A stretch of DNA of 64,000 bases from assembly GCA_020350825.1 (NCBI GenBank), contig CP070724.1, positions 1,401,452 to 1,465,451 of the forward strand. Reading direction: 5' to 3'. The translations under genes and the position numbers were made by a program. This document shows, piece after piece, positions 13,444 through 32,009 of this stretch. The stretch is from Thermoplasmatales archaeon. Its GTDB lineage: Archaea > Thermoplasmatota > E2 > DHVEG-1. Every line of letters begins with the position of its first letter. Within the stretch, counting starts at the first letter, position 1. The notes beneath the pieces are model-generated. The model was given only the letters and a program-made list of their open reading frames with translations, was not told the origin of the DNA and ran no database searches.

Positions 13444-15516
13444 ATGCGTTTGAAATCTCTGATAGTAATAATTGTATGCCTTTTGATTACAGCTAGTTTT
13501 TTCATTATATTTTTTAATGAAAAATGTAGGGCTAGCCGAAATGCAATCTATGTCGATAACTCATTTCACGCACCTAGGGATGGCAGTGCAGAGCACCCCT
13601 ATGAGAGTATTCAGTATGCAATAGATCTGGCAGATGCAGGAGATACCATATATGTTTTTGGTGGAACATATAACGAAACCCTGGTTATAAATAAAAATGT
13701 AACTCTTATAGGTAGTATTGATAACGGCGACACTATCATATCTAAGAATGCAAGGCACAAGTATGCAGTAGAGATAGATACTAACTATGTAACCTTTGAA
13801 AGTTTTACGATATCTGATACCTCAAATAATAATCTCGTTGCTCTGGTTTACGTTAGGTCAAATAATGTCGTTATCCAGGGGAATAACATTACTGACTCAA
13901 AAACTTGGGGTATATATTTTGATTCTTCTAGTGATAATACTATTGGTAATAATATTATTGATAATACTAAAGGAGTTTATTTGTTTTCCTCGGATAATAA
14001 TGTTTTTTCGAACAATAATTTTTATAATTGTAGTGAAACAGCTCTTAAATTGTCTTCTTCTTCTCAGACTATAATATATAACAACATATTTGACAATAAC
14101 ATATACTCTATATATGCGCAATCTAGTAGTGGCAACAACATTAGCGGAAACACAATCAATAATATTATTATTGATGCAATAAAGTTACAAGGGGACAGCA
14201 GCAATATTGTAGAAAATAATCACATTAGCAATTGCGGTGGTAATGGTCTTAAGTTAGATTCTTCAGATAGTATAGTCATTGGAAACAAATTTGATAATAA
14301 CCAAATAGCCATCATGCTTGGTGCATCGAATTGTCAGATTAATAATAACTTTATAAACAATTCAAATATACAAGGTATTTACGCCAATTCTGTAAGTGAA
14401 GATAATATAATTTATTTGAATCATTTCATTGGAAATTATGTTAATGCCAAAAATGATGGGAATAATCAATGGTATTATGAAACACAAGGCAATTACTGGG
14501 ATGATTATAATGAGATTGATTTAGATCTTGATAAAATAGGGGACACCCCACATTATATTTCTGGAGGTGGTCAGGACTTATATCCTCTAGGGTATTTTCT
14601 AAAACCTCCGACTAAACCAGATAATCCTTTCCCTTCAGACGAAGCAGAAGAGGTGGGTTTATCTATCACCTTAGATGTAGCTGTTTCAGATCCAGATAGT
14701 GATATGCTAGATGTATACTTTTATGGGGCAACTGATGATAAACTCTATGGTGTAGATCGTATGGTTCCAAGTGATGAGGTAGCGTCATGTAGTTTTAATT
14801 TACCTTTTGAGACTACATTTCTTTGGTATGCAGTGGTTACCGATGGCAAGCTAGAAAACCGTTCTAACATTTGGATTTTTACAACAAGGCAAATACCTCC
14901 GTTAAATAAAAAACCAGTTGCTGATCCAGGGGGGCCATACTCTTCAATCATGGATAGAGAAATTGCATTTGACGGCTCTAGCAGTTCTGACCCAGACGGA
15001 AATATTGATTTCTATCGATGGAATTTTGGCGATGGAAGTAGCGAAATTCTAGACATATACCCTGAACATAGCTACTCTGAATCCGGTACGTATGTTGTAA
15101 CATTAACTGTGGTTGATAATGATGGAAGGAGCAATACGGAAACTACTACAGCTACTATTTCTAAAACGTCTAATGCGCTCCCTATATCCATACCAAACGC
15201 TCCAAATTCAAGTAATGCTAATGAATTAATTACATTTGGTGCCTATGAAAGCTATGATCCAGATGGAACCATAGCCAACTATACTTGGGATTTAGGTGAC
15301 GGAAATGTAAGGTATGGTGTTACAGCAGCACATAAATATTCTAAGGCGGGTACCTATATGGTTATGTTAACAGTCATGGATAACGAAGGTGATAAAGATA
15401 CGACTTATACTATTGTTTCTGTTAATGCCCCGCCTGAAGAAAGTCCTGGGTTCGAAATTATACTTGCAATACTAGCATTGATATATATTCTGATCTATAA
15501 AAAACGTAGAGAATAA
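13444..15516 (+). CDS. Surface protein: NosD-type beta-helix, two PKD domains, PGF-like C-terminal anchor
   Basis: 690 residues. A signal peptide (1-31) is followed by a DUF1565-like opening (IYVDNSFHAPRDGSAEHPYE), about 250 residues of right-handed parallel beta-helix (PbH1/NosD repeats rich in NN and SSxNNxIxxN), the NYWDDYNEIDLDLDKIGDTP cap, a fibronectin-like segment (about 385-485) and two PKD domains (WNFGDGSSE and WDLGDGNVR). The C-terminus ESPGFEIILAILALIYILIY then KKRRE fits the PGF-CTERM tripartite signal processed by archaeosortase. It is probably anchored on the cell surface to bind glycan or neighbours. TATA: TTTTATATAAT at 13341-13351. Confidence 0.85.
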   Translation: MRLKSLIVIIVCLLITASFFIIFFNEKCRASRNAIYVDNSFHAPRDGSAEHPYESIQYAIDLADAGDTIYVFGGTYNETLVINKNVTLIGSIDNGDTIISKNARHKYAVEIDTNYVTFESFTISDTSNNNLVALVYVRSNNVVIQGNNITDSKTWGIYFDSSSDNTIGNNIIDNTKGVYLFSSDNNVFSNNNFYNCSETALKLSSSSQTIIYNNIFDNNIYSIYAQSSSGNNISGNTINNIIIDAIKLQGDSSNIVENNHISNCGGNGLKLDSSDSIVIGNKFDNNQIAIMLGASNCQINNNFINNSNIQGIYANSVSEDNIIYLNHFIGNYVNAKNDGNNQWYYETQGNYWDDYNEIDLDLDKIGDTPHYISGGGQDLYPLGYFLKPPTKPDNPFPSDEAEEVGLSITLDVAVSDPDSDMLDVYFYGATDDKLYGVDRMVPSDEVASCSFNLPFETTFLWYAVVTDGKLENRSNIWIFTTRQIPPLNKKPVADPGGPYSSIMDREIAFDGSSSSDPDGNIDFYRWNFGDGSSEILDIYPEHSYSESGTYVVTLTVVDNDGRSNTETTTATISKTSNALPISIPNAPNSSNANELITFGAYESYDPDGTIANYTWDLGDGNVRYGVTAAHKYSKAGTYMVMLTVMDNEGDKDTTYTIVSVNAPPEESPGFEIILAILALIYILIYKKRRE

Positions 15517-15565: not shown

Positions 15566-16585
15566 GTGAGGAAAGTTTCAACAGGTATAGTAATTTTTCT
15601 GCTTCTTAATGTTTTTTTAGTTTTCTTTACTTATGGAAATTGTGAGGCTGGAAAAATATTGTATGTAGGTGGAACTAAGACTGAAAACTATACAAGTATT
15701 CAAACTGCCATTGATGATGCATCAGAGGGAGATACCATTTTTGTTTTTTCTGGGACTTATAATGAAAGTATTGTTGTAAACAAATCAATAAACTTGATCG
15801 GTGAAGACAAAAACAGAACCATACTTGATATCAATAAAAGTGAACATTATGCCATTCTATTACAGGCTCAGGGCGTTAACATTAGTGGTTTAACCATTCA
15901 AAATTGTACTGTAGGTATATACGTTGTAGGATATGGAAATGTGTCTCAAAATAATATAATAATGAATAATAACATTACAAACAATTTTGGTGGTATTTAT
16001 TTAAGTAATTATTCCAGCAATAATCTTATTTCTGGTAATATTATCACAAAAAACAACGGTGAGGGAATCCGTCTTTTTGGATCAGTTGATAACAAAATCA
16101 ATGGAAATATAATAACAAAAAATGGTGGCTTTGGGATTGTTTTATGGGATTCGTCCCAATATAATTTTATATCTGAAAATACTATTTTAAATAATCTAAA
16201 AGGAATTGCTCTTAGAAGATGGTCTAATAACAATATTATTTTTGAGAATAACATTACGAGAAACAGGAACTCAGGTATCTATATAACATATTCGTTTAAG
16301 AATAATATATCTGAAAATAATATTGGAAATAATACCTTTGGTATCTATCTTGAGGATTCAACTAAAAATACTATTTCTGCAAACTACGTTTTAGGTAACC
16401 GTTATGGGATATATTTATATGATTCACCCAATAACATGATATATTTGGAAAACATTTTTTCAGATAACAATGAAGACATTTGGGATAGATCTAGAACTTT
16501 TAAAACACCCAGTCTTGAATTACCACTTGTTGTGTGTGCATTTTTATTTGTTTTGTTCTTAAAAAGAAATGGAAAAATGTTTTAA
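15566..16585 (+). CDS. NosD-type beta-helix surface protein with C-terminal membrane anchor
   Basis: 339 residues from a GTG start. A signal peptide (residues 1-29, ending NCEAG) precedes an opening similar to the upstream gene (YTSIQTAIDDASEGDTIFVF) and about ten PbH1 turns of the pattern NNxIxxNxxGIxLxxSxxN. The C-terminus, SLELPLVVCAFLFVLFLKRN, is a hydrophobic helix and basic end like the PGF-type anchor but with SLELP in place of PGF. It lies 50 bases after the previous gene, is paralogous to its N-terminal half, and is probably co-transcribed with it. Confidence 0.82.
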   Translation: MRKVSTGIVIFLLLNVFLVFFTYGNCEAGKILYVGGTKTENYTSIQTAIDDASEGDTIFVFSGTYNESIVVNKSINLIGEDKNRTILDINKSEHYAILLQAQGVNISGLTIQNCTVGIYVVGYGNVSQNNIIMNNNITNNFGGIYLSNYSSNNLISGNIITKNNGEGIRLFGSVDNKINGNIITKNGGFGIVLWDSSQYNFISENTILNNLKGIALRRWSNNNIIFENNITRNRNSGIYITYSFKNNISENNIGNNTFGIYLEDSTKNTISANYVLGNRYGIYLYDSPNNMIYLENIFSDNNEDIWDRSRTFKTPSLELPLVVCAFLFVLFLKRNGKMF

Positions 16586-17379: not shown

Positions 17380-17571
17380 GGCTAGTCACAGTTCCCATCC
17401 ACATCTCCTCATATAATTGGTACTGTGTAACGTGTAAGACTTTAATATAGATCTGGTTTATATTTATTTTGGCAAATGTTGTCAACCTCATTTTTTAGGA
17501 TGGAGATAATTTTCTAAAAACATGGTTTTATAAATAAATAATCGTTATCAAATATGAGGAGATGGGAAAAT

Positions 17572-18210
17572 ATGTTAAAATATTGCCCCGTATGTGGAAA
17601 CAATTTAGAAGAAGGCTTTAAGTTCTGTCCTAATTGTGGAAAAAAATTGATAGGTGAAATTGCGTTTTGCCCGGAATGCGGTAAAAAAATGATTTTATCT
17701 GAGAAAAGAATAGCACCTACACCTGAAAAAAGGGAAACGGTCAAGGCAAAAAAAAGAAAAAGCAGGGTTACTTTTCCTAAATTTACTCGACATATTCCGA
17801 GAAAAACCGCGATTGTAATTATTGCTATTATATGCTTGGCTGTTGTTGTAAGTGCTGCAGTAATTGTGTTGTCTCCATTTGGTACCAATGGTGGTCAATC
17901 AGCAGGAAGGAGTTTTACTGTGACAGTTGAAAATACCTTTGGCTCTGATGCAGTGGGTTATTTAAAGGTTGGATCATTAAAATATGGTGGGACTTTCACA
18001 GTAATGTTTGGAATTCCTCAGACGATAAATGTTGAGGAAGATACTCTCTTTTCAGGTATTCTTGGAAGTAATTATTCGATAACTCTTTATGCAACAATTA
18101 ACGATATAACTGAAGAGGCAACGGCTATTGCTGTAACAGAATCTGCAAACTTCTTGGTTTCTAAATCTACTATTGGTGAAGTTCAGGTCGAGTGTACTGA
18201 TTATCAATAA
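17572..18210 (+). CDS. Zinc-ribbon membrane protein with extracellular domain
   Basis: About 212 residues. Three CxxC pairs in tandem near the start (YCPVCGN, FCPNCGKK, FCPECGKK) form zinc ribbons in the cytoplasm. A basic linker precedes one transmembrane helix (about TAIVIIAIICLAVVVSAAVI), and a roughly 100-residue beta-rich domain follows outside. The ATG at 17572 follows GAGGAGATGG at a workable distance; another in-frame ATG at 17554 lies upstream but too near the promoter TTTTATAAATAAATA (17526). Zinc ribbon plus single helix suggests a membrane adaptor or sensor; no specific function. Confidence 0.7.
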   Translation: MLKYCPVCGNNLEEGFKFCPNCGKKLIGEIAFCPECGKKMILSEKRIAPTPEKRETVKAKKRKSRVTFPKFTRHIPRKTAIVIIAIICLAVVVSAAVIVLSPFGTNGGQSAGRSFTVTVENTFGSDAVGYLKVGSLKYGGTFTVMFGIPQTINVEEDTLFSGILGSNYSITLYATINDITEEATAIAVTESANFLVSKSTIGEVQVECTDYQ

Positions 18211-19020: not shown

Positions 19021-19815
19021 ATGAAACAAGAATTACAAATAAAAAAAGCAGAAAAATATGTTTTAACAGGGATTCCTGGATTCGATAGACTCTTTAAAAA
19101 CGGCATCCCAAAAGCCTCTACTGTCCTTGTTGCTGGAGGTGCTGGCTCAGGAAAAACTAACTTCTGCCTCCAAATGTTAGCACACCATGCCTCTAAAGGT
19201 AAAAAATGTTATTTCATGGGTTTTGAAGAATCAGAAGAACGACTAATTGAACATATGGAAATTTTTGGCTGGAATCCACGCAAAATGATAAAAGAGGGAA
19301 ATCTAAAAATTAAAAGATTTTTAACCGCTGAGATATACTATTATGATAAAAAAAGCGGTAGTGACATCGAAGCTATGATGACTAAAGAAGTTGACCCTCT
19401 TCTCATGGAATTGGAACCGCTATCGATCGCTGATAACGTAGGATTCAAACCAGATTTCATCGTCCTTGACTCTCTTTCAGCTCTCTCCTCAACTTTCTTG
19501 GGAAAAGAACAAGCTTACCGGTTTTATGTAGAGCGATTATTCAGATTTTTAGAAAAAATCGGAAGTACTACCTTTCTTACTACAGAGACACAGCAAATTC
19601 CAGAGATGTTTTCTCCAACTGGTGTCGAAGAATTCTTAGCTGATGGTGTCATTGCCATCTACAATATCAGAAAACAAAATATTAGAGAAAATGCTATCGA
19701 AATCTTGAAAATGCGTGGTGAAAAACATCAAAAGAGAATTGTATCAATGGAAATTACTGACAGCGGGATTATAGTTGATCCAAACAAAGAAGTATTTGCA
19801 GGATTGGAGTTTTAA
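19021..19815 (+). CDS. KaiC-like RecA-superfamily ATPase
   Basis: 264 residues with a single KaiC/RadA-type domain. TGIPGFDRLFKNGIPKAST is the conserved lead-in, Walker A is GGAGSGKTN (39-47), FEESEERL (68-75) holds the catalytic glutamates and FIVLDSLSA (146-154) is Walker B. A C-terminal segment with MRGEKHQKR is family-typical. Archaeal members act as signalling ATPases, and ArlH of the archaellum motor belongs to this superfamily. It is convergent with the pilus operon (70 bases between stops), so a link to pilus control is possible but unproven. The ATG has AGGTGAGGA ahead. Confidence 0.88.
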   Translation: MKQELQIKKAEKYVLTGIPGFDRLFKNGIPKASTVLVAGGAGSGKTNFCLQMLAHHASKGKKCYFMGFEESEERLIEHMEIFGWNPRKMIKEGNLKIKRFLTAEIYYYDKKSGSDIEAMMTKEVDPLLMELEPLSIADNVGFKPDFIVLDSLSALSSTFLGKEQAYRFYVERLFRFLEKIGSTTFLTTETQQIPEMFSPTGVEEFLADGVIAIYNIRKQNIRENAIEILKMRGEKHQKRIVSMEITDSGIIVDPNKEVFAGLEF

Positions 19816-19885: not shown

Positions 19886-22054
19886 CTAGGGGATGCTTGA
19901 CTCTAATTGGCCTGGATTGTTATAGTGATATAGGATTTCATCTGCTAGAATTTCTCTACCATAGATGGCGATTTCATCAATATGACCATAGAAGGATTTA
20001 CCAAAGTATATGTCTTTTGTACTGCTAGCTATTCCACCATTATAAAATTCAGATGTTTCTTCATTCCCATTAATGTAGAGCTTCATAATTGAATTATTAT
20101 ATGTTAAAACAATCTGGTTCCAATCGGTTGTAGATAACACCATCTCTTTTGAAATTACATGATCACCAATTGTAGCACTAACATGGGTCTGATTTACATA
20201 GATGCCATAAACTCCCTCCCTATCAATAATTCTGATACCACGGAGATCTATAGGATCCTCATAGTCACTAAATCGACTAGTTATCAAGTGCCCCTCGTGA
20301 GGTGTACCAGACTGTGAACCGCTTCTAAATGCTATTGCATAAATGTCATCAGATATTCGGATAATATCCGGCTCAAGTCCATGATAATTCTTCTTTGTGT
20401 TAAACTGGAATTTAGATTCAAAAGAAATCGACCCATTGGGTTTAATTTTAACAGATGCTACATATCCATCCAACTGTTCATATTCATAGGCTATTAAATA
20501 AGTCTCATTTCTCATCTGGATGATATCTGGTAAAAGACAATAGTTTTCTTCAAATTCTAAAATGTCAATAACTTGTTGGGTAATAGTACCATTTTCATTT
20601 ATTTCAACTGTTGCCAATAAACCATTTTTATTGTAATCTCTATATGCTATCGCATATGTGGTATTAGCTACATGAATTATCTGGGATTCATGTGTTTCAT
20701 TCAATAAATCAAATATGAAAGTATCAATAACTTGAGGATAGACGGTACCATTATCTGCTATTCTTACTGTTTTCAAATACCCGTAATTATTGCTACCCCT
20801 GTAGGTTATTGCATATATGTTATCAGCAACATGGGTAAGATCTGGTTCAAAACAATTAATACTATCAAATTCAAGAGTACCATTGGTAAGGCTTGCATTA
20901 ATACTAGTTCCGTTATCACTCGTTTTAATTGTCCTTAGAATCCCATGTTCATTATTATCTCTATAAGCCAGAACAGATAGATTGTCAGCAATTTTCATTA
21001 ATTCATGATCATATACTTCCTTAGAATCAAAATTATATTCATCTAGAACGGCAATAGTAGTTCCATTATCTAGCATTTTCACTGTCTTTATATATGCATG
21101 TTGAGGATTATTTCCAGATTGAGCAAAAGCTATCATGTAGACATCATCTGAAACATGTGTGATTTTTGGCCAGTAACACTTGTCACCAAATTCTAGGGAA
21201 TTGTTGAAAATATCTTGTGTTATTGTACCATCAGGGTAAAGTCTTACTGTTTTAAGAATGCCTACTTCTTGCTGATCTCGATAGGCAATAGCGTAGACAT
21301 TATTTGAAACATGAATAATATTTGGCTCATAGCCAAAAGCTGGACCATATTTGAAATTATGAAGAACATTATCTTCTGGAAACTTAATCCATGATTCAAT
21401 TGTTATCGCATCGGTAATATCAAGACTAATTGAATTGCCATTTACTATTACATAATCATCAAGCCCATCAAATCTTAATGAACTAGTACCGGCAGCCGTT
21501 ACCTCACTATTCCATTGAGGTCCAAAAATTTCATCGGGGTAGATAGTACCATTGTTATTGTTTAAAACATCAACTGCTGTGTTTCCACTGTTTTCATCAA
21601 AATGCCAAATCCCACCAGGCGCATAAATGATGTCCCCGTCCTGAAGAAGACCCCACATTATAATACTATCAGATTCTTCATCAACAGCTGTGATGTACAC
21701 ATTAAAATCTGATAAGTCAAACTCTGAGTAAATCAGTCTTTCACCAATGTTCCAACACCCATCCAGTTTAGCTTCTTCATCTAACATTTCGTCGACTGTT
21801 GTAAATATCTGCCTATATCCTGCAATAGTTAGCATGATTCTTGTATCTAAACTCAATGGTTCGCCACTCCGATGATCTATTAAGACGTCACCGTTTTCAA
21901 CTGTTCCAACAATCTTTACCGCTGGCACCGAGTAAGGACCGGGATCCGATAAAATAGTTACGTATAGTGTAGAAATAAAACAAACAGCAATAGCTAATAG
22001 CATGACAGCTCCTATTACTTCTGATACTGCATCATCTCCTCTTTTACAATTCAT
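19886..22054 (-). CDS. Giant type IV pilin: pilin domain plus LamG domain split by a seven-repeat propeller
   Basis: 722 residues. A class III signal, KRGDDAVSEVIGAVMLLAIA (4-23), fits prepilin peptidase processing before the hydrophobic helix (DUF1628/archaeal pilin N-domain). Residues 43-140 match the neighbouring 146-residue pilin, sharing WNIGERLI and the following strands. A LamG/concanavalin domain starts at about 148 (IWHFDENSGNTAVDV; ITIESWIKFPE at 217) and resumes at about 600-710 (TDWNQIVLTYNNSIMKLYIN; HIDEIAIYGR). Between, seven repeats of the type EPDIIxISDxIYAIAYRD begin near 243, 296, 350, 403, 456, 508 and 561, as expected for a seven-bladed propeller. Many sequons. Probably the pilus-tip adhesin. 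The last gene of the operon; a separate promoter is possible near 22165-22185. Confidence 0.85.
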   Translation of the reverse strand: MNCKRGDDAVSEVIGAVMLLAIAVCFISTLYVTILSDPGPYSVPAVKIVGTVENGDVLIDHRSGEPLSLDTRIMLTIAGYRQIFTTVDEMLDEEAKLDGCWNIGERLIYSEFDLSDFNVYITAVDEESDSIIMWGLLQDGDIIYAPGGIWHFDENSGNTAVDVLNNNNGTIYPDEIFGPQWNSEVTAAGTSSLRFDGLDDYVIVNGNSISLDITDAITIESWIKFPEDNVLHNFKYGPAFGYEPNIIHVSNNVYAIAYRDQQEVGILKTVRLYPDGTITQDIFNNSLEFGDKCYWPKITHVSDDVYMIAFAQSGNNPQHAYIKTVKMLDNGTTIAVLDEYNFDSKEVYDHELMKIADNLSVLAYRDNNEHGILRTIKTSDNGTSINASLTNGTLEFDSINCFEPDLTHVADNIYAITYRGSNNYGYLKTVRIADNGTVYPQVIDTFIFDLLNETHESQIIHVANTTYAIAYRDYNKNGLLATVEINENGTITQQVIDILEFEENYCLLPDIIQMRNETYLIAYEYEQLDGYVASVKIKPNGSISFESKFQFNTKKNYHGLEPDIIRISDDIYAIAFRSGSQSGTPHEGHLITSRFSDYEDPIDLRGIRIIDREGVYGIYVNQTHVSATIGDHVISKEMVLSTTDWNQIVLTYNNSIMKLYINGNEETSEFYNGGIASSTKDIYFGKSFYGHIDEIAIYGREILADEILYHYNNPGQLESSIP

Positions 22055-22237: not shown

Positions 22238-23101
22238 TTATTCAACCCAACCCGGTCCAATCTGAGCATCAATATTGATAATACTCAAAGAAATAGAATA
22301 AATAAGATTGTCATTAATCGTTAAATCTAATAATATCCCACCATCAACCAGTGACACAGAGAAATCAACATCCTTAGATAAACCAGCTTTCACAAATGTG
22401 CTTTCCAAAAACAGGCGCCACGCATTAGGAAAAGACGTTCCAATAAAGATATTGTCAACATCAGTTATATTATTAGATTCAGAATCAACATACTCCGTTT
22501 GAATCGGATATGTACCATATCCAGTCGCCGATAATTTCTCCCCCACACCCGTAATATTTACCATATCAAATGACATATTGACATTTGATCCAGCATGAAT
22601 TGCATTAAATGATGGTTTAACTAACATCATATTCCCTAGATCTTGACTCACTATCACCGCACCAGTCTCATAAATATAAGATTGATCAAGAAAATAGACA
22701 TTTGCCGATGAGTATTTCAGTGTTCCAACTGAATTCGATAAAAATTCTGTGCCATTCTGACTATACGTTATTCCTACTGTAAATTCATCTGATAAAATTT
22801 CAAGAGTGCCAAACGCTCGGACAGACATTAAGAATGGAAGTTCTTTGTTTCCTAAAGTCATAGATGTGGCTACAGGAATGCCTTCTCGCTGTGTAAAAGC
22901 TTGATTATCAATAGCTGATTTTAACCTTGCAAACTGATCCGCTACAACATCCATATGTTCTGCTTCCCGTTGTTCCATCATTTTTGGCACATACGTTGTC
23001 TGCACAAGGGCAATAACCGCCACAGCAAGACCTACCAGTAAAACTGCAGTAACAACACCAACGACGGCGCTATCTACTCTCTTTATATGATTCTTACGCA
23101 T
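22238..23101 (-). CDS. Pilin-like protein with long extracellular domain
   Basis: 287 residues. A basic start (MRKNHIKRVDSAVVGVVTAV) leads into one hydrophobic helix (about 12-31), as in class III-signal pilin-like proteins, although the cleavage site is less clear than in its neighbours. The extracellular part begins with a helical stalk (REAEHMDVVADQFARLKSAI) and continues as a beta domain resembling DUF7289-type haloarchaeal proteins found in pilus and secretion loci. Position three of the pilus operon, between the small pilin and the adhesin, suggests a minor pilin. Confidence 0.75.
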   Translation of the reverse strand: MRKNHIKRVDSAVVGVVTAVLLVGLAVAVIALVQTTYVPKMMEQREAEHMDVVADQFARLKSAIDNQAFTQREGIPVATSMTLGNKELPFLMSVRAFGTLEILSDEFTVGITYSQNGTEFLSNSVGTLKYSSANVYFLDQSYIYETGAVIVSQDLGNMMLVKPSFNAIHAGSNVNMSFDMVNITGVGEKLSATGYGTYPIQTEYVDSESNNITDVDNIFIGTSFPNAWRLFLESTFVKAGLSKDVDFSVSLVDGGILLDLTINDNLIYSISLSIINIDAQIGPGWVE

Positions 23102-23131: not shown

Positions 23132-23572
23132 TCATATAGCATCTCTTCTGTGGATGACTCCTGTCATTATGACATAATTGCTTTCTGCATCAACAACAGT
23201 TATCGCAACCTGTCGATCAGAAATATCCACGATATAATCAACAGATTCAATAATAAGTCGTTCACCAATGTTCCATAGGCCGTTGTTATTTGTATCATTT
23301 AACAAAGTGTCGATTGTCCAATTCCGAGGATCTTCATTATCAATAATTAAAATTACTACTGTATCTGGAGGTAAAGATTCTCCGCCATTATGTTCGATTA
23401 CAATAGTGTCTCCTTCAAATGCCCCAACAAGATTTACAGAAGGAACAGAGGGTTGAGATTGAAACGATAAAACAATAAAATTTAATACCGTAAATAAAAT
23501 AATAGCTATACCTAAGAGTACAGCTGTCCCCACGATTGCAGTGACTCCTTTGTTTGTTTTTCTATGGTTCAT
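23132..23572 (-). CDS. Type IV pilin (DUF1628 N-terminal domain)
   Basis: 146 residues. The start, MNHRKTNKGVTAIVGTAVLL, has the K-G-x-T-A-I-V-G motif of archaeal type IV pilins with the cleavage point before the hydrophobic helix (9-33). A small beta domain follows, containing DNEDPRNWTIDTLLNDTNNN and GLWNIGERLI. The same WNIGERLI-centred domain opens the giant adhesin pilin downstream, so the two are paralogues. Likely the main pilus subunit. It lies 20 bases after the platform gene. Confidence 0.85.
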   Translation of the reverse strand: MNHRKTNKGVTAIVGTAVLLGIAIILFTVLNFIVLSFQSQPSVPSVNLVGAFEGDTIVIEHNGGESLPPDTVVILIIDNEDPRNWTIDTLLNDTNNNGLWNIGERLIIESVDYIVDISDRQVAITVVDAESNYVIMTGVIHRRDAI

Positions 23573-23592: not shown

Positions 23593-25356
23593 TTAGAGTA
23601 ACAATTTAAATATGAAAAAGGAAATTAAACCGAGAACGCAACTAAATCTAACTCCTGAAGAAAGATTACCATCCATCATGAAACCACCTAAAAGTCCTGT
23701 ACCAATACTTTGGACAAACACAAATGAATATAAAGAATACTTCAATACTAATGGATCAAATACACTTAGTACAAAAGTCCCAATTCGTAATGATTGTTCA
23801 TTCTGTAGTTCAAAGAATGAAGTAAAAATGGTTTTATCAAGAATTATAATAATAGCTAAAAACACAAAAAAACATAAAAATATTACTATCGTATAGATAG
23901 ACATATTGGCCTTTCGTTGATTTTCAAGTCGATTAACTTGACCGACTTCCCTAGATGCTGATTTAAAAATTTTTGATGTGTTCCCACCCATTACTAATCC
24001 TCGGTTAATAGTAATCACAACCCGATGGATGATAGCAGACTTCATCCGCTCAGCAAAATTATTAAACACCTCCTTCATTGAAATATCCCAAGAGAGTTGT
24101 GCCTTCATCTTTTGAATTTCAGATGAGAGCCTTCCATAATGAGCTTTTGACGAAACCTTAATCGCATTAAAAATCGTCATCCCTGTATTAAGAGAATCTC
24201 CGGTTTCAATAAGAAACTCTGGCAACCGTTGCTGTATATCCATCTTCTTTTTCATTTCCAAATAATAAAAAAATCCTATTGGTCCAATGAGGAACAATAT
24301 CGAAAGGAAAATAAAATCCAATTGTGTATAGAAATTAAGATCCATATATCCGATTACACTTAATACAAAAATAATCGTGTAAAAAGCTAAAATGAAACCC
24401 ACAGATATAACTACGATTGAAATAGGTAATTTATGTTCATGGTAATATTCTCCGAACGTGTATTTTTTTTTCTTTTCAACCTTGCTAATTTTCTCAAGAC
24501 TCGTTGACGAGATTAAAAAGTAAAACGCTGCATAAATGAACGGCAGTATCAAAAGAGAAAAAATCAATAAAATATTAATCGATAAATCCATAGAGCCCCC
24601 AAAAAATCCGAAAACCGTCAGGATAATGACTAAAAATATGGGGAATGCGATCACCGCGATAACAAACACCTCTGCGATAATAGCAAGTAAATCTAAATCT
24701 CTCTTTCTATCAGTGAAGTCCTCCTCCATATATTTTTCAACAATATTTTCGAGGTAGATATGTAGTTGACTACCAGCTTGAATTGTACCGATCATCCCTT
24801 GGAGAAACGCTTTAAATTTCTTTGACGGGGAGATGTCTATTGCGTGTTTCAAAGCACTAATGTTGTCAACGTTCATTACGTTAATTTCTTTCGCGATTTT
24901 TTTTGCCTCAGCCTGTAATGCTCCATAGAGATCAATTGTAGCAAGTGTCGAAAAAATCTCGGATGGCGAGATCCCCGCAACCGACATGGAGTTGATAAAA
25001 TTGACTGCATATGGCAAAAACAAGTCAATTTGTGCAGATCTTCGTTTAATATAGAATCTCGGAAGATATAGATATGTCAAACCTATGCTAAGGGTAACAA
25101 GGGATGGTATGAGTATAATGGAAAAAATGACATATTCAAAAGGAATAAATAGGTAGAATCCGACAAAGACGACTAGAGTGGTGATTAATAATAGTAAGGT
25201 ATTAAGGAGAGCCATTGCATAGTATTCGATACATTCTATTAGGATGTCAGCTTTTTCGAGTTCAATGTTTTTTTCATCAATACGATCCTTAAATCTTCTG
25301 GAGAAAAACTTGCCAAAGAGCCGTAATGAAAACCGTGAATATGCTGTTGATTTCAC
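23593..25356 (-). CDS. Pilus assembly membrane platform (TadC/GspF-like, two T2SSF domains)
   Basis: 587 residues. Two type II secretion F domains: residues about 110-210 (FINSMSVAGISPSEIFSTLA) and about 375-475 (LPEFLIETGDSLNTGMTIFN), each followed by hydrophobic helices; eight or nine transmembrane segments in all. This is the archaeal TadC/PilC/ArlJ inner-membrane core that couples to the pilus ATPase. Its ATG overlaps the stop of the ATPase gene by 4 bases (25353-25356), indicating translational coupling. Confidence 0.9.
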   Translation of the reverse strand: MKSTAYSRFSLRLFGKFFSRRFKDRIDEKNIELEKADILIECIEYYAMALLNTLLLLITTLVVFVGFYLFIPFEYVIFSIILIPSLVTLSIGLTYLYLPRFYIKRRSAQIDLFLPYAVNFINSMSVAGISPSEIFSTLATIDLYGALQAEAKKIAKEINVMNVDNISALKHAIDISPSKKFKAFLQGMIGTIQAGSQLHIYLENIVEKYMEEDFTDRKRDLDLLAIIAEVFVIAVIAFPIFLVIILTVFGFFGGSMDLSINILLIFSLLILPFIYAAFYFLISSTSLEKISKVEKKKKYTFGEYYHEHKLPISIVVISVGFILAFYTIIFVLSVIGYMDLNFYTQLDFIFLSILFLIGPIGFFYYLEMKKKMDIQQRLPEFLIETGDSLNTGMTIFNAIKVSSKAHYGRLSSEIQKMKAQLSWDISMKEVFNNFAERMKSAIIHRVVITINRGLVMGGNTSKIFKSASREVGQVNRLENQRKANMSIYTIVIFLCFFVFLAIIIILDKTIFTSFFELQNEQSLRIGTFVLSVFDPLVLKYSLYSFVFVQSIGTGLLGGFMMDGNLSSGVRFSCVLGLISFFIFKLLL

Positions 25357-27302
25357 TTGGAAGCCTCTTTTGCCTTTTTTAACGTCTCTGAAGGATCTCG
25401 CAAATACGCAGAGACAACTCTACCAACATCTTCGTACGATCGAAGATTTTTATGTATCATCCAATCCAATATGAACATCCGATTCTGGAGTTCCTCATTT
25501 AGCCGAACATCATCCCATCCATTCTCAAGTTTTATCTGATATAGAATCCGACTACCACCAGAATTTTCAAATCTATCATCACCCTCGGAAATCCATTTAA
25601 AGGGAGTCATTGTCACCAGTCGATTCGTCCCGGGATCCAATTTAATAATCTCAGTCACGTTTGTAATCCGCCGAACTGGTAACCCTTTAACAGTCACAGA
25701 ATTCAAAAATACTATCATATCAAGCGATGTCAACAACGCCCTTGGTAAATCAATAGGAGCATTCTCCAGCCGCTGAATAAGCGAATGCATATCACTTGCA
25801 TGAACCGTTGAATAAGAAAGATGCCCTGTCGTCATCGCCTGAAATAGCGTATACGCTTCTTTACCACGCACCTCACCTACAATAATCACACGAGGACGTT
25901 GTCGTAAAGCAACACGAATCAGATCATACATATCAATATCTCTCCCTGTCTTGGCTGACTCTAACGCAGAAAAACCAGATCGAGTCGTCCCTGCAATCCA
26001 ATTTTCATGAGGCAGATTAATTTCCCGAGTATCTTCAATAGATACAATCTTGTAGGCCGAAGGCACAAATAATGAAAGCGCATTCAACATCGTTGTCTTA
26101 CCAGTTGCTGTACCACCACAAAACAAAATAGAAACACCTTTTTCGATCGCCAACCAGAAAAACGCTGCCATGTCCAAAGACATCGTATTATTTGCAATCA
26201 AATCGACAGGTGTCAAAGGATCCTCTCTAAACCGCCGAATTGTAAATGTAGAACGCATCGTAATCGTTCGGCCTAATGTTGTCTGAAGACGAGAACCATC
26301 ATACAGTTTCCCATCAACAACAGGTTCATATACAGAAATCTGCTTCCCGCACATCTGAGCCAACTTCACCACAAACGAATCTAGCTCATCATCATCATCA
26401 AATATCACATTCGTTTTAATCGACTCATACTTCTTATGGAAAATAAAAACAGGAATTCCGTGACCATCACATGAAATATCCTCGATCCCCTCATCAGTCA
26501 TCAAAATATCAATTCGACCATACCCCAGAAACTCTCTAAAAATATAATAAAATATTTTATCCTTTGACGCATCATCTAGTTTTACCCGATTATCAACAAT
26601 AAGCTTCTCAAATGCCTCCTCAAGATTTTTTCTTTTATCACTAAAGTTTAATCCAAATACATCAATATCAGCATGTTTTTTAAATAAAGAAATAAGTTTA
26701 TTTTTGCTTTCCTCCTCATCCACAGTCAAAGGAGGTTCTACTACTTCATATAGATACTCTTTCTTCTCTGTATCAAATACAATTTTCCGAGTACCAAGTT
26801 CTTTCCACCCAAAACCTGTCCTCTTATCAATCAACTTTTTGTTTTCTTTATCACTACTAATTTCCCACTTAAAATTCTTTTTCTCCTCACCATTATTTAG
26901 TCCAACATCTATTGTCTCTTTTTCTGCTTTGTTATCAACAGATTTTCTCCCCCAGAATCTTATTGTTTTCCTCTCTGATTTCCCTTTTACATCGTGTTTT
27001 TTCAACTTTGCTTTCGGCTCTTTTATTGTTCTTGCTTTCAATTGCTTCTGGGGATCGCGAGGTTTAACCTGTCTTTTTTTAAACGAACTCATTTCAGTTA
27101 CAATTTTTGAATGACGTTTATCAATTTCTTTCTTTGATAAATGCTTTTTTTTATCTAATCTCTCTTTTTTAGATTTACGTGGAATAGATTTTGTAAGTAG
27201 GGAAGATGTATTACTAAAAAAAATTATTCCAATTCCTAAAAATAAGAAAAACTCTTTAGATATTGCATGTTTGACATTTTTTTTTATTTTAAAGCAATCC
27301 AT
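25353..27302 (-). CDS. Type II/IV secretion ATPase of a pilus system (TadA/PilB/ArlI-like)
   Basis: 649 residues. The C-terminal two-thirds is a VirB11/PilT-type hexameric ATPase: Walker A GGTATGKTTM (about 398), Asp box near SIEDTREINLPHENW, Walker B VIIVGEVRG (about 473) and the His box STVHASDMHS. The N-domain around residue 260 has the REFLGYGRIDILMTDEGIED signature. It powers pilus assembly. Ahead lies a lysine/arginine-rich stretch of about 150 residues and a hydrophobic N-terminus (FFLFLGIGIIFF), unusual for a cytoplasmic ATPase; GGAGAGGTGG before ATG 27302 supports this long start. A GTTTATATTTG box (complement near 27377-27387) is the likely operon promoter. Confidence 0.92.
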   Translation of the reverse strand: MDCFKIKKNVKHAISKEFFLFLGIGIIFFSNTSSLLTKSIPRKSKKERLDKKKHLSKKEIDKRHSKIVTEMSSFKKRQVKPRDPQKQLKARTIKEPKAKLKKHDVKGKSERKTIRFWGRKSVDNKAEKETIDVGLNNGEEKKNFKWEISSDKENKKLIDKRTGFGWKELGTRKIVFDTEKKEYLYEVVEPPLTVDEEESKNKLISLFKKHADIDVFGLNFSDKRKNLEEAFEKLIVDNRVKLDDASKDKIFYYIFREFLGYGRIDILMTDEGIEDISCDGHGIPVFIFHKKYESIKTNVIFDDDDELDSFVVKLAQMCGKQISVYEPVVDGKLYDGSRLQTTLGRTITMRSTFTIRRFREDPLTPVDLIANNTMSLDMAAFFWLAIEKGVSILFCGGTATGKTTMLNALSLFVPSAYKIVSIEDTREINLPHENWIAGTTRSGFSALESAKTGRDIDMYDLIRVALRQRPRVIIVGEVRGKEAYTLFQAMTTGHLSYSTVHASDMHSLIQRLENAPIDLPRALLTSLDMIVFLNSVTVKGLPVRRITNVTEIIKLDPGTNRLVTMTPFKWISEGDDRFENSGGSRILYQIKLENGWDDVRLNEELQNRMFILDWMIHKNLRSYEDVGRVVSAYLRDPSETLKKAKEASK

Positions 27303-27852: not shown

Positions 27853-29415
27853 TTGCAAGAAAAGATCATAAGAAAATATATTAGCTTATTAATAATCCTT
27901 TTAATTACAACAGTTTTTCCAATCGAAAATATAGAGGCCATTGACAACATAATTTATGTCAATATCGAGAACTATCAAGGCCCCTGGGACGGCACCGCAG
28001 AACATCCATATCAAACGATACAGGAAGGCATCAATGCTGTGGCGGAAAACGGTACTGTCTATGTCTCAAATGGAACCTATCAAGGTCCTATTCTTATAAA
28101 CAAAACAATCAAACTAATAGGTACTGACAAAACTAACACGACGATAGATGGTAACGGTAACAAAAACAGTGTAATTATTATAGCCGATGAAATAACGCTT
28201 CAAGGATTCACTATAATAAATTGCACCACTGGTATCAATATGAGTAAAACCTCAAACACTAATATAACACAAAATACATTATCAAAAATAGAGTACGGTA
28301 TTTATTTAACCAACCAATCTAACCACAACACTATCTATAATAATAACTTCTTAAAAAATACAATACACGCGTATGACAATGGTATTAATATCTGGAATCA
28401 CACCTATCCAACAGGAGGAAACTACTGGGACGATTACAACGGCACAGATTCAAACAACGACGGTATTGGAGACACACCATACAATATAGCGGGCGGAAAA
28501 AACCAAGACATATATCCATTGATAGAACCAATAACTGAAAAACCATTCGCTGACTTTACTTTCTCACCAACAAATCCAACCACCCAAGACATCATCCAAA
28601 TAACAGATACATCCACAGATCCAGATGGCCATATAACAACATGGTCTTGGAATTTTGGAGATCAAAACACCTCAGCAATCCAACATCCAACTAAAAAATA
28701 TACTGATGACGGAATTTACACCATAACTCTGACTGTCACAGATAATTACGGAGCAACAGATAAAAAAACTCGACAAATCACCATATTAAACGTGGCACCA
28801 ATTCCAAATTTTAATTATTTCCCAGCAACTCCCACGGATCTAGAAGTAGTAATTTTCAACGACAAATCATTTGATATGGATGGAACCATTGCCTTTTGGA
28901 ATTGGGATTTTGGCGATGGAAACACCTCAAACGAACAAAACCCAACACATCAATATGCAGATAACGGAATATATACCATTACTGTAAATGTCACTGATGA
29001 CGACGGAGCTGAACAGAAAACTACTAAGCAAATCACAATACAAAATGTCGCACCACAGGCTAGTTTTAGCTTCTCTCCAGCAGAACCAACTACAAACGAC
29101 ACAATACAGTTTCTAGATCATTCAAAAGACAACGACGGAGAAATCATTACATGGAACTGGAACTTTGATGATGGTACAACATCTACGGAAAAATCTCCTA
29201 CTTATAACTACAAAACAGAAGGAACCTACCGGGTATTATTAAAAGTTAATGACAACGACGGAGACACCGAGACAATAACAAAATACATCATCGTGCTTCC
29301 ATCAACGCCCTCAAATGAACGGGGAATAGAGGAGATTGCTATTTACTTTGTATACCTTGCCCTTTTTATCATAATGATAGGAATGGTCTTTTGGCTAAAA
29401 AGAAAATATGAATAA
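27853..29415 (+). CDS. Surface protein: NosD beta-helix, three PKD domains, C-terminal helix
   Basis: 520 residues from a TTG start preceded by GAGGAGAG. A signal peptide (1-27) is followed by the same IYVNIENYQGPWDGTAEHPY opening as the gene at 13444, a short beta-helix, the NYWDDYNGTDSNNDGIGDTP cap, then three PKD domains with WNFGDQNTS, WDFGDGNTS and WNFDDGTTS cores. The C-terminus has one hydrophobic helix (IYFVYLALFIIMIGMVFW) and basic end KRKYE but no PGF motif, so it is probably a plain membrane anchor. It is divergent from the pilus operon. Confidence 0.85.
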   Translation: MQEKIIRKYISLLIILLITTVFPIENIEAIDNIIYVNIENYQGPWDGTAEHPYQTIQEGINAVAENGTVYVSNGTYQGPILINKTIKLIGTDKTNTTIDGNGNKNSVIIIADEITLQGFTIINCTTGINMSKTSNTNITQNTLSKIEYGIYLTNQSNHNTIYNNNFLKNTIHAYDNGINIWNHTYPTGGNYWDDYNGTDSNNDGIGDTPYNIAGGKNQDIYPLIEPITEKPFADFTFSPTNPTTQDIIQITDTSTDPDGHITTWSWNFGDQNTSAIQHPTKKYTDDGIYTITLTVTDNYGATDKKTRQITILNVAPIPNFNYFPATPTDLEVVIFNDKSFDMDGTIAFWNWDFGDGNTSNEQNPTHQYADNGIYTITVNVTDDDGAEQKTTKQITIQNVAPQASFSFSPAEPTTNDTIQFLDHSKDNDGEIITWNWNFDDGTTSTEKSPTYNYKTEGTYRVLLKVNDNDGDTETITKYIIVLPSTPSNERGIEEIAIYFVYLALFIIMIGMVFWLKRKYE

Positions 29416-30536: not shown

Positions 30537-32009
30537 ATGAAAAATAATATGTTAAAGAAAACTATGGTTTTTGGAATAATAATATTGTTTGTTGGCGCAA
30601 GTATCGTATCAAATGTTAGTAGTGAAATTAAAAATGTACCAAAACTTACAATAAGTGATGATTGGTGGGATAATGAATGGCATTATAGAAAAAAGATTAC
30701 AATAGATCATAACTATGTAGATGATAATCTTAATAGCTTCCCAGTATTGGTGGTTCATATTTCATCTGATCTTGCCGATAACGCTCAACATGATGGTGAT
30801 GATTTTGTCTTTACAACTAATGATGGAATAAAACTTAATCATGAAATTGAAAAATATGTTGATTCGTATGGTGAACTTGTAGCTTGGGTAAATGTTCCAA
30901 GTCTTTCCTCAACGGTTGATACAAGTTTGTATATGTATTATGGTAACTCGAATTGTGCCAATCAACAAAATTCTGAAATGGTTTGGGATTCCAATTACCA
31001 ATGCGTATATCATATGAATGAACCGAGTGGACATATATATGATAGTACGGTATATGAAAACATAGGGATAAAACAAGGTTCTTTGTCATATCAAGCACCA
31101 GGTAAAGTGGGTTATTGTGTTTGGTTTTCAGGTAACGGTTATTTTGATTACGTACTGGCAAAAGAAGATTTAGATACCAATGATGCTTGTATAGAAATAT
31201 GGGTAAACTGGGATGGATCAAGTCCTTGTGATGGTTATTTTGGTTGGGATACGACTAATGATAATCGTTTCTATTTTTCTGTAAATCCTTCACATTGGAA
31301 TGTTGGTTGGGGCAATTTATATTCCCAGGAAATCGGTACATCTGATAGTAACTGGCATTATATGTCATTTAGAGCGACCCCTGGTGAGGTTTTAGATGTT
31401 TATATCGACACGATATATCAAACCACTTTTGATAGTATCCCTTTTGTAGGTACATCTGACATTCGTATTGGGACAGTTGAGCTTGATTCTAGTTACTATT
31501 GGTATGGGCTTATTGATGAGGTCCGTGTCTCAAATAGTTCAAGAACACAAGCATGGATTTCTACATCTTTCAACAATCAAAATGATCCATCGAGTTTCAT
31601 GAGTTTTGGACCTGAAGAAATTGCTTCTTTAGCACCAAGTGCCCCTATAATAAACGGTCCTTTGTCAGGGACTGCAGGGAAGAATTATTCGTACACGTTT
31701 GTTTCAATAGATCCTAATGATGACGATGTATTTTATGAGATTGACTGGGGAGATGGAGATATTGATCCGTGGGATGGCCCGTATGAATCAAATGAATTAA
31801 TATCAAAAGATCATATTTGGTCTGAGCAAGGAGAATTTACCATTAAAGCGAGAGCTAAGGATGTAAACGATAATATTGGTGAATGGGGGACACTAGAAGT
31901 GACTATGCCAAAAAACAAAGCATTCAATTTCTCCTTCAACTTGCTAAGTTGGCTGTTTGAACGATTGGCGCGGGCATTTCCAATATTAGGACACCTGTCA
32001 GGACTATAA
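30537..32009 (+). CDS. Exported DUF2341/LamG protein with conserved C-terminal tail
   Basis: 490 residues. Signal peptide (1-29), then DUF2341 (WHYRKKITIDHNYVDDNLNS to LYMYYGNSN, about 48-140), a LamG/concanavalin domain (about 155-340, with CIEIWVNWDG and GLIDEVRVSNSS), and a PKD/Ig-like domain (about 368-455, YEIDWGDGDIDPWDG). The tail MPKNKAFNFSFNLLSWLFER then ending FPILGHLSGL has no transmembrane helix: an amphipathic segment with a leucine-rich end. I recall similar PKNK...FP-x-L-xx-L tails on many Thermoplasmata exported proteins. GGGAGG precedes the ATG, and TATA-rich sequence lies near 30489. Confidence 0.82.
   Translation: MKNNMLKKTMVFGIIILFVGASIVSNVSSEIKNVPKLTISDDWWDNEWHYRKKITIDHNYVDDNLNSFPVLVVHISSDLADNAQHDGDDFVFTTNDGIKLNHEIEKYVDSYGELVAWVNVPSLSSTVDTSLYMYYGNSNCANQQNSEMVWDSNYQCVYHMNEPSGHIYDSTVYENIGIKQGSLSYQAPGKVGYCVWFSGNGYFDYVLAKEDLDTNDACIEIWVNWDGSSPCDGYFGWDTTNDNRFYFSVNPSHWNVGWGNLYSQEIGTSDSNWHYMSFRATPGEVLDVYIDTIYQTTFDSIPFVGTSDIRIGTVELDSSYYWYGLIDEVRVSNSSRTQAWISTSFNNQNDPSSFMSFGPEEIASLAPSAPIINGPLSGTAGKNYSYTFVSIDPNDDDVFYEIDWGDGDIDPWDGPYESNELISKDHIWSEQGEFTIKARAKDVNDNIGEWGTLEVTMPKNKAFNFSFNLLSWLFERLARAFPILGHLSGL

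Follow-up and report, generated by a model that had tools for sequence, protein, structure and literature searches.

The open reading frame at positions 19886-22054, on the minus strand of the window (the whole stretch of 64,000 nucleotides that was analysed), encodes a protein of 722 residues that begins as an archaeal type IV pilin and continues into a LamG domain split by a predicted seven-bladed beta-propeller. The architecture is real and well supported, and a function as an adhesin is plausible by analogy with known pilins. The protein is probably a minor, modular type IV pilin, which would carry its LamG-propeller head as an adhesin and either cap the pilus or be present at low copy.

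The gene starts with ATG and has its stop codon at 19886-19888, and an ORF check of the plus strand across 19886-22054 revealed no comparable frame. It is the last member of a minus-strand operon-like run, in the order ATPase, platform, 146-aa pilin, DUF7289 pilin-like protein and 722-aa pilin-LamG-propeller gene, with a gap of 183 bp separating it from the DUF7289 gene. The features are as follows:

19886..22054, minus strand: whole gene, 722-aa modular type IV pilin, comprising a pilin and a LamG split by a predicted 7-bladed propeller (ORF, Pfam, repeat HMM)
21617..22054, minus strand: aa 1-146, class III-type signal, hydrophobic helix and pilin domain with WNIGERLI core (Pfam, AF2, homology)
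21371..21616, minus strand: aa 147-228, N-terminal part of LamG, GIWHFDE ... ITIESWIKFPE (Laminin_G_3 2-30; NCBIfam TafC)
20261..21370, minus strand: aa 229-598, predicted seven-bladed beta-propeller (repeat HMM, AF2, PDB fold matches)
19889..20260, minus strand: aa 599-722, C-terminal part of LamG (Laminin_G_3 at 627-707, 9.6e-14)
22238..23101, minus strand: DUF7289 pilin-like protein, 287 aa (Pfam PF23960, 1.6e-8)
23132..23572, minus strand: type IV pilin, 146 aa, candidate major subunit (Pilin_N, 3.4e-10)
23593..25356, minus strand: pilus assembly platform, 587 aa, T2SSF/FlaJ-like (T2SSF, 4.8e-24)
25353..27302, minus strand: pilus assembly ATPase, 649 aa (T2SSE, 4.1e-32)

The 649-aa ATPase matches the NCBIfam archaellum ATPase model at 2.7e-108 (363 bits, under the equivalog cut-off). 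Its closest relative among named genomes belongs to a Thermoplasmatota MAG (68%), in agreement with the phylum presumed by the initial annotation, and the ten loci returned when named genomes were queried with it were all devoid of the propeller. The 146-aa protein is the putative major pilin; small pilins are also encoded elsewhere in the genome, as is a prepilin peptidase (PF01478). Several other genes of the region were recorded, including a KaiC-like ATPase gene (19021-19815, plus strand) convergent with the 722-aa pilin gene, a 218-aa protein that contains a transmembrane segment as well as two zinc ribbons and has a weak archaellin-like match (17554-18210, plus strand), and three large secreted proteins near the operon (13444-15516, 15566-16585 and 27853-29415, all plus strand), which by eye resemble NosD/beta-helix and PKD-repeat surface proteins. 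A further LamG is located at 31146-31562 on the plus strand, inside a 495-aa ORF close to the operon.

The initial annotation had read the N-terminus as a pilin domain in common with the adjacent 146-aa pilin, and this is borne out by profile, motif and alignment. Pilin_N (PF07790) matches aa 8-70 at 1.6e-8 (35.8 bits vs a curated cut-off of 25.2), and the sequence reads as a class III-type signal, MNCKRG followed by DDAVSEVIG, with the predicted cleavage site between them. The segment CWNIGERLIYS corresponds to LWNIGERLIIE of the 146-aa pilin, to which residues 1-146 are 38% identical (E 4.7e-21), and the AF2 model places a helix at 10-35 with beta strands after it. Encoded with a T2SSE ATPase and a T2SSF platform in an order kept in relatives, the protein can be classified as an archaeal pilin; the combination of N-terminal Pilin_N with Laminin_G_3, a domain that is not pilus-specific, further places it among the modular type IV pilins.

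With regard to LamG, the domain had been described as interrupted after ITIESWIKFPE and resuming beyond the repeats. The C-terminal half alone (627-707) covers positions 58-150 of Laminin_G_3 (PF13385) with 52.2 bits, and the N-terminal half alone gives a weak match to positions 2-30 (13.9 bits); the NCBIfam TafC fimbrial model also matches aa 149-227 at 5.5e-5, under its equivalog cut-off. When residues 231 to about 598 were removed and the halves joined, an unbroken match to positions 2-150 of 151 was obtained (61.9 bits, 9.9e-17), and deletion of the repeats from nine relatives with 7, 14 or 21 repeats likewise restored essentially the whole LamG profile, at 36-74 bits (55.8 for L060). A 788-aa pilin of the same genome has a LamG without an inserted propeller: profile positions 4-126 are contiguous, and the last 30 are separated from them by an unrelated insert further along. 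This paralogue aligns colinearly with the split LamGs; where they hold the propeller it has a short loop, located after [IL]T[IV]E[ATS]W[IVLM][KN], and the insertion site is the same in all aligned split LamGs. Because deletion restores the profile and the unsplit paralogue aligns, the propeller is, by sequence, nested in LamG at a constant site. The tree of the LamG alignment, which bears on single versus repeated insertion of the propeller, is weakly supported at its deep nodes. A frame fusion or chance origin was considered and rejected, the protein being a single intact ORF whose relatives at 30-53% identity retain the entire layout; the architecture is not due to chance, since the pattern recurs across many genomes.

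An iterative repeat HMM detected exactly seven repeats of about 52 residues each in the 722-aa protein (237-283, 292-340, 342-388, 396-446, 455-499, 501-544 and 557-583), with domain E-values from 1.7e-11 to 6e-26. These are the same units as the seven similar repeats of the initial annotation, whose starts were shifted by about 4-8 residues; the blades themselves start at about 237, 290, 342, 396, 449, 501 and 555. A lone d strand (NVLHNFKY) precedes blade 1, and the last blade stops at strand c. In the pilins lacking LamG (~500 aa), the propeller similarly opens with a lone strand, SDTxxF, and finishes after strand c of blade 7. Such a 1+3 strand "velcro" arrangement is the typical closure of closed propellers. 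Among related proteins with well-scoring repeats, counts of 7 (about 15 distinct proteins), 14 (about 14) and 21 (one) were found. Proteins with 6 detected repeats are mostly of the 832-870 aa type, in which, according to alignment A1, the ~47 residues preceding the C-terminal half of LamG contain a divergent seventh blade, and contig-end and some divergent proteins gave other counts (2, 3, 5, 8, 11, 12 or 13 repeats), many with blade-sized gaps. Undetected blades appear to explain most of the divergent members with off counts (6, 8, 12 and 13 repeats), although this is not proven; exceptions to counts in sevens are one case of 8 and one of 6 repeats, both in giant proteins.

The AF2 model of the 722-aa protein, based on 12 natural sequences, has a mean pLDDT of 73 and a pTM of 0.56, with no reliable domain orientation. 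It shows four-stranded blades, the propeller having pLDDT values mostly of 75-95 (averages mostly of 71-95 over residues 241-500). The AlphaFold-type prediction that had been proposed as a check was thus informative in part: the blades were modelled confidently, and so largely was the C-terminal half of LamG (pLDDT about 70-91), but the N-terminal half had low confidence, with values of 29-66 (<50 over much of 153-192). A Foldseek search of the model against PDB returned trans-sialidases at the top (E 6e-11; propeller plus lectin-like domain, six blades), GH43/GH32 enzymes also among the best fold matches, and, as single-ring matches, the seven-bladed lectin PLL2 (TM 0.72, normalised to PLL2) and LGI1 EPTP (0.65). 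Pfam scans of the propeller region found no credible family, no BNR/Asp-box or sialidase family (the blades being seven, not six) and, among matches to E 1, no PilC/PilY1 propeller family; a single-sequence PDB search gave no relevant match, and a propeller profile search gave non-significant BamB matches only. Taken together, the counts of 7/14/21, the 1+3 closure, the four-stranded blades and the PDB propeller matches argue for a closed ring rather than an open solenoid. The closed propeller suggested by the initial annotation is therefore supported by sequence and model. Neither outcome named there as refuting was encountered: the repeats do not look like an open solenoid, and the flanking segments match one LamG profile. 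In addition, aa 37-722 contain 15 N-x-S/T sequons, where shuffles of the same composition would give 7.1 (p about 0.007), often as NGT/NGS in the turn after blade strand c; this excess may reflect possible glycosylation or merely a structural turn.

In the AF2 model of a 1177-aa, 14-repeat relative, confidence drops to <50 at precisely 698-707, where blade 7 gives way to blade 8, and the second blade set opens with a lone d strand of its own (705-709). The top Foldseek matches of this model are long multi-propeller proteins, including Elp2 and Sro7, both of which are double seven-bladed propellers. On the basis of the break, the new strand and the double-propeller matches, we read the 14-repeat relatives as two rings in series, both within LamG. 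Duplication of a whole propeller was considered as the source of the 14 repeats and rejected, blade-by-blade similarity showing no excess at offset 7. Since conservation of the blades follows their position from one species to the next, the doubling is an old event, and the path that led to it is no longer readable.

Matches to some part of the 722-aa protein occur in 44 of 60 related genomes, many via the pilin part only. Within the organism's family, 25/45 genomes carry the propeller; the 35 other genomes of the same class yielded none, and two of the further genomes sampled across the rest of the phylum have it. Thus, the propeller family is nearly confined to one archaeal family. The two cases outside the class are non-pilin surface proteins with the nested LamG-propeller cassette. 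A 739-aa membrane-anchored protein (L143 1959-4175, G093) has its LamG split by 7 repeats, and a 2048-aa beta-helix-like protein (L142 2713-8856, G084) by 21. Since it is carried by pilins and by other surface proteins, the LamG-propeller unit can be regarded as a cassette. Queries of named genomes with the 722-aa protein found no relative, and neither did searches of phages, nor, for the propeller, of plasmids. Several giant predicted surface proteins also contain the same propeller family (L144 4874-17554, 4227 aa; L146 678-12815, 4046 aa; L147; L148).

Three pilin layouts are known in the family, and all three are present in this genome: pilin plus LamG split by 7 (the 722-aa protein); a 1219-aa protein consisting of a pilin, a ~90-aa spacer without a Pfam match and LamG split by 14 (L047, G000:C1:612549-616091), which adjoins a pair of platform genes and two T2SSE ATPase genes in tandem (850 and 916 aa); and a 506-aa protein in which the pilin is joined straight to 7 blades without LamG (L048, G000:C1:1642534-1644021), located apart from assembly genes. 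The initial annotation had proposed a search for the same fusion near pilus ATPases in other genomes, and it was indeed found there: G032 and G068 share the gene order of ATPase, platform, small or long pilin, DUF7289 and propeller pilin, and G030 and G015 have this order with a small pilin. Variants with a split platform and 14-repeat pilins occur in the loci of many other relatives, and the DUF7289 gene also comes after the 14-repeat pilins in most loci with intact flanks. The platform is a single 587-aa gene here vs two ~300-aa genes in the 14-repeat operons (L047, L060, L063) and in L055, where it resembles CdiPFa/CdiPFb of Cuniculiplasma pili (PMC12448462).

Several known systems resemble parts of this arrangement. 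Trypanosomal trans-sialidases and Vibrio cholerae-type sialidases also combine a propeller with a ConA-like sandwich, but they are six-bladed enzymes, and the lectin domain of trans-sialidases comes after the propeller. In V. cholerae sialidase the lectin domain is inserted into the propeller, the reverse of the nesting in the 722-aa protein. PLL-family lectins share the single closed seven-bladed ring, but they are stand-alone, and no sequence relationship to the 722-aa propeller was detected. The closest counterpart is PilC of Streptococcus sanguinis, a modular minor pilin (PMC9934059). It carries an Ig-like and a ConA-like lectin module, binds glycans, is modelled at the pilus tip and is stabilised by a partner pilin. 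Both PilC and the 722-aa protein start with a class III pilin module followed by non-pilus modules including a ConA-like lectin (PF13385/IPR013320), both have a bulky head that argues for the tip, and PilC has an Ig-like domain where the 832-870 and 1150-1380 aa relatives have a ~90-aa domain at the junction of pilin and LamG. On the other hand, the 722-aa family uses archaeal Pilin_N, not IPR012902, and its LamG holds one or two propellers; glycan binding is reported for PilC and is a prediction for the 722-aa family; and no PilA homologue was identified for the 722-aa pilin, DUF7289 being the conserved neighbour. According to a survey of bacterial IPR012902 proteins (PMC8179133), the pairing of a pilin module with PF13385 ranks among the 15 most frequent modular pilin architectures, and the 722-aa protein is an archaeal equivalent of these pilins by architecture, not by descent. 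It was also reported that the bacterial type IVa pilus tip adhesin PilC/PilY1 bears a beta-propeller (PMC8179133). A propeller presented by a type IV pilus would be common to both cases, but PilY1 is not a pilin and its propeller is IPR008707, whereas here the propeller shares the pilin chain and is nested in LamG. LamG proteins and propellers also occur on the surface of other archaea, some near pilus genes, as in the ARMAN-related archaeon Mia14, where LamG genes adjoin type IV pilus loci; in the parts of that report consulted, a nested LamG-propeller pilin is not described (PMC5498576).

The statement that no described example was known is therefore upheld for the nested arrangement and needs qualification for its components, LamG modular pilins and propeller-bearing PilC/PilY1 being known in bacteria (PMC8179133, PMC9934059). 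No description of a nested LamG-propeller pilin was found in the open-access literature searched, which is weak evidence of absence. The archaeal pilus literature searched describes no modular pilin adhesin, and a literature search found no paper on pili of Thermoprofundales/MBG-D. On that footing, what appears to be new is that the domains are nested, that rings are added stepwise and that the setting is archaeal; modular pilins themselves are already known.

By homology, prepilin peptidase would cleave the N-terminus of the 722-aa protein, and the ATPase and platform of the same operon would assemble it. In the predicted head, a closed seven-bladed propeller occupies the loop after strand TIESWIK of a LamG (ConA-like) sandwich, an arrangement that would keep LamG beside the pilin and project the propeller outward on two short linkers. 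With about 575 residues, the head appears too bulky for the repeating body of a filament of the 146-aa pilin, so the protein most likely caps the pilus or is present at low copy, possibly with the DUF7289 pilin-like protein as its partner. The head may serve as an adhesin for glycans or glycoproteins on cells, particles or sediment polymers, and a role as a surface-binding organelle tip, as first suggested, is plausible by analogy; LamG could act as a structural stem instead of a lectin. Related pilins enlarge this head by another propeller plus a putative Fn3/Ig-like spacer, or lack LamG; by such extension or loss, reach and binding specificity may be varied on a common pilin.

Other readings of the protein were weighed against this minor pilin adhesin. 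Its N-terminus might serve solely to build a surface complex that forms no filament and traps nutrients (sugars) close to the membrane, like the bindosome of Sulfolobales. Archaeal substrate-binding proteins with class III signals exist, and the ATPase has a match to the NCBIfam bindosome model BasE as well, but far under the cut-off (183 of 1000 bits) and much less well than the archaellum ATPase model; moreover, the operon contains a small pilin and a DUF7289 pilin-like protein, and the 722-aa protein has no Pfam match to a transporter or substrate-binding family, which makes this reading unlikely. A filament body subunit of a thick decorated pilus would agree with some relatives lacking a small pilin gene beside the 14-repeat gene, but is very improbable given that the head is some four times as heavy as the small pilin, and that a small pilin adjoins the 722-aa gene while others lie elsewhere in the genome.

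The fold matches to trans-sialidases and GH43/GH32, which pair a propeller with a ConA-like domain, would also suit a pilus-displayed propeller enzyme, either a glycoside hydrolase or a lyase, that carries a lectin module. The matched enzymes contain five or six blades rather than seven, no Pfam enzyme or BNR/Asp-box match was found, the blades are near-uniform repeats, and PLL-type seven-bladed lectins match as single rings, all of which render an enzyme quite improbable. That the repeats form an open solenoid, or a single 14-bladed ring in the 14-repeat relatives, with the LamG halves as separate small domains, is compatible with the missing period of seven in blade similarity and with the poor AF2 confidence for the N-terminal half of LamG. 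It is nevertheless highly improbable in view of the repeat counts, the velcro closure, the break between blades 7 and 8, the Foldseek matches to closed and double seven-bladed rings, and the continuous LamG profile after deletion.

Beyond the preferred reading as a minor pilin adhesin, there is a somewhat less than even prospect that the propeller, as an undescribed archaeal family, and the split LamG form a transferable adhesive cassette of n x seven blades (n = 1, 2, 3), presented by type IV pili as tip adhesins, with the number of rings tuning reach and specificity. The protein represents a propeller family that Pfam does not contain, and it is a clear example of domain nesting, in which one LamG loop accommodates 0, 1, 2 or 3 complete propellers. 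Little is known of surface recognition by archaeal type IV pili, and the 722-aa family provides a concrete candidate in a lineage for which environmental genomes are the main source of knowledge. It also shows that archaea, like bacteria, attach binding modules to pilins, with unrelated parts.
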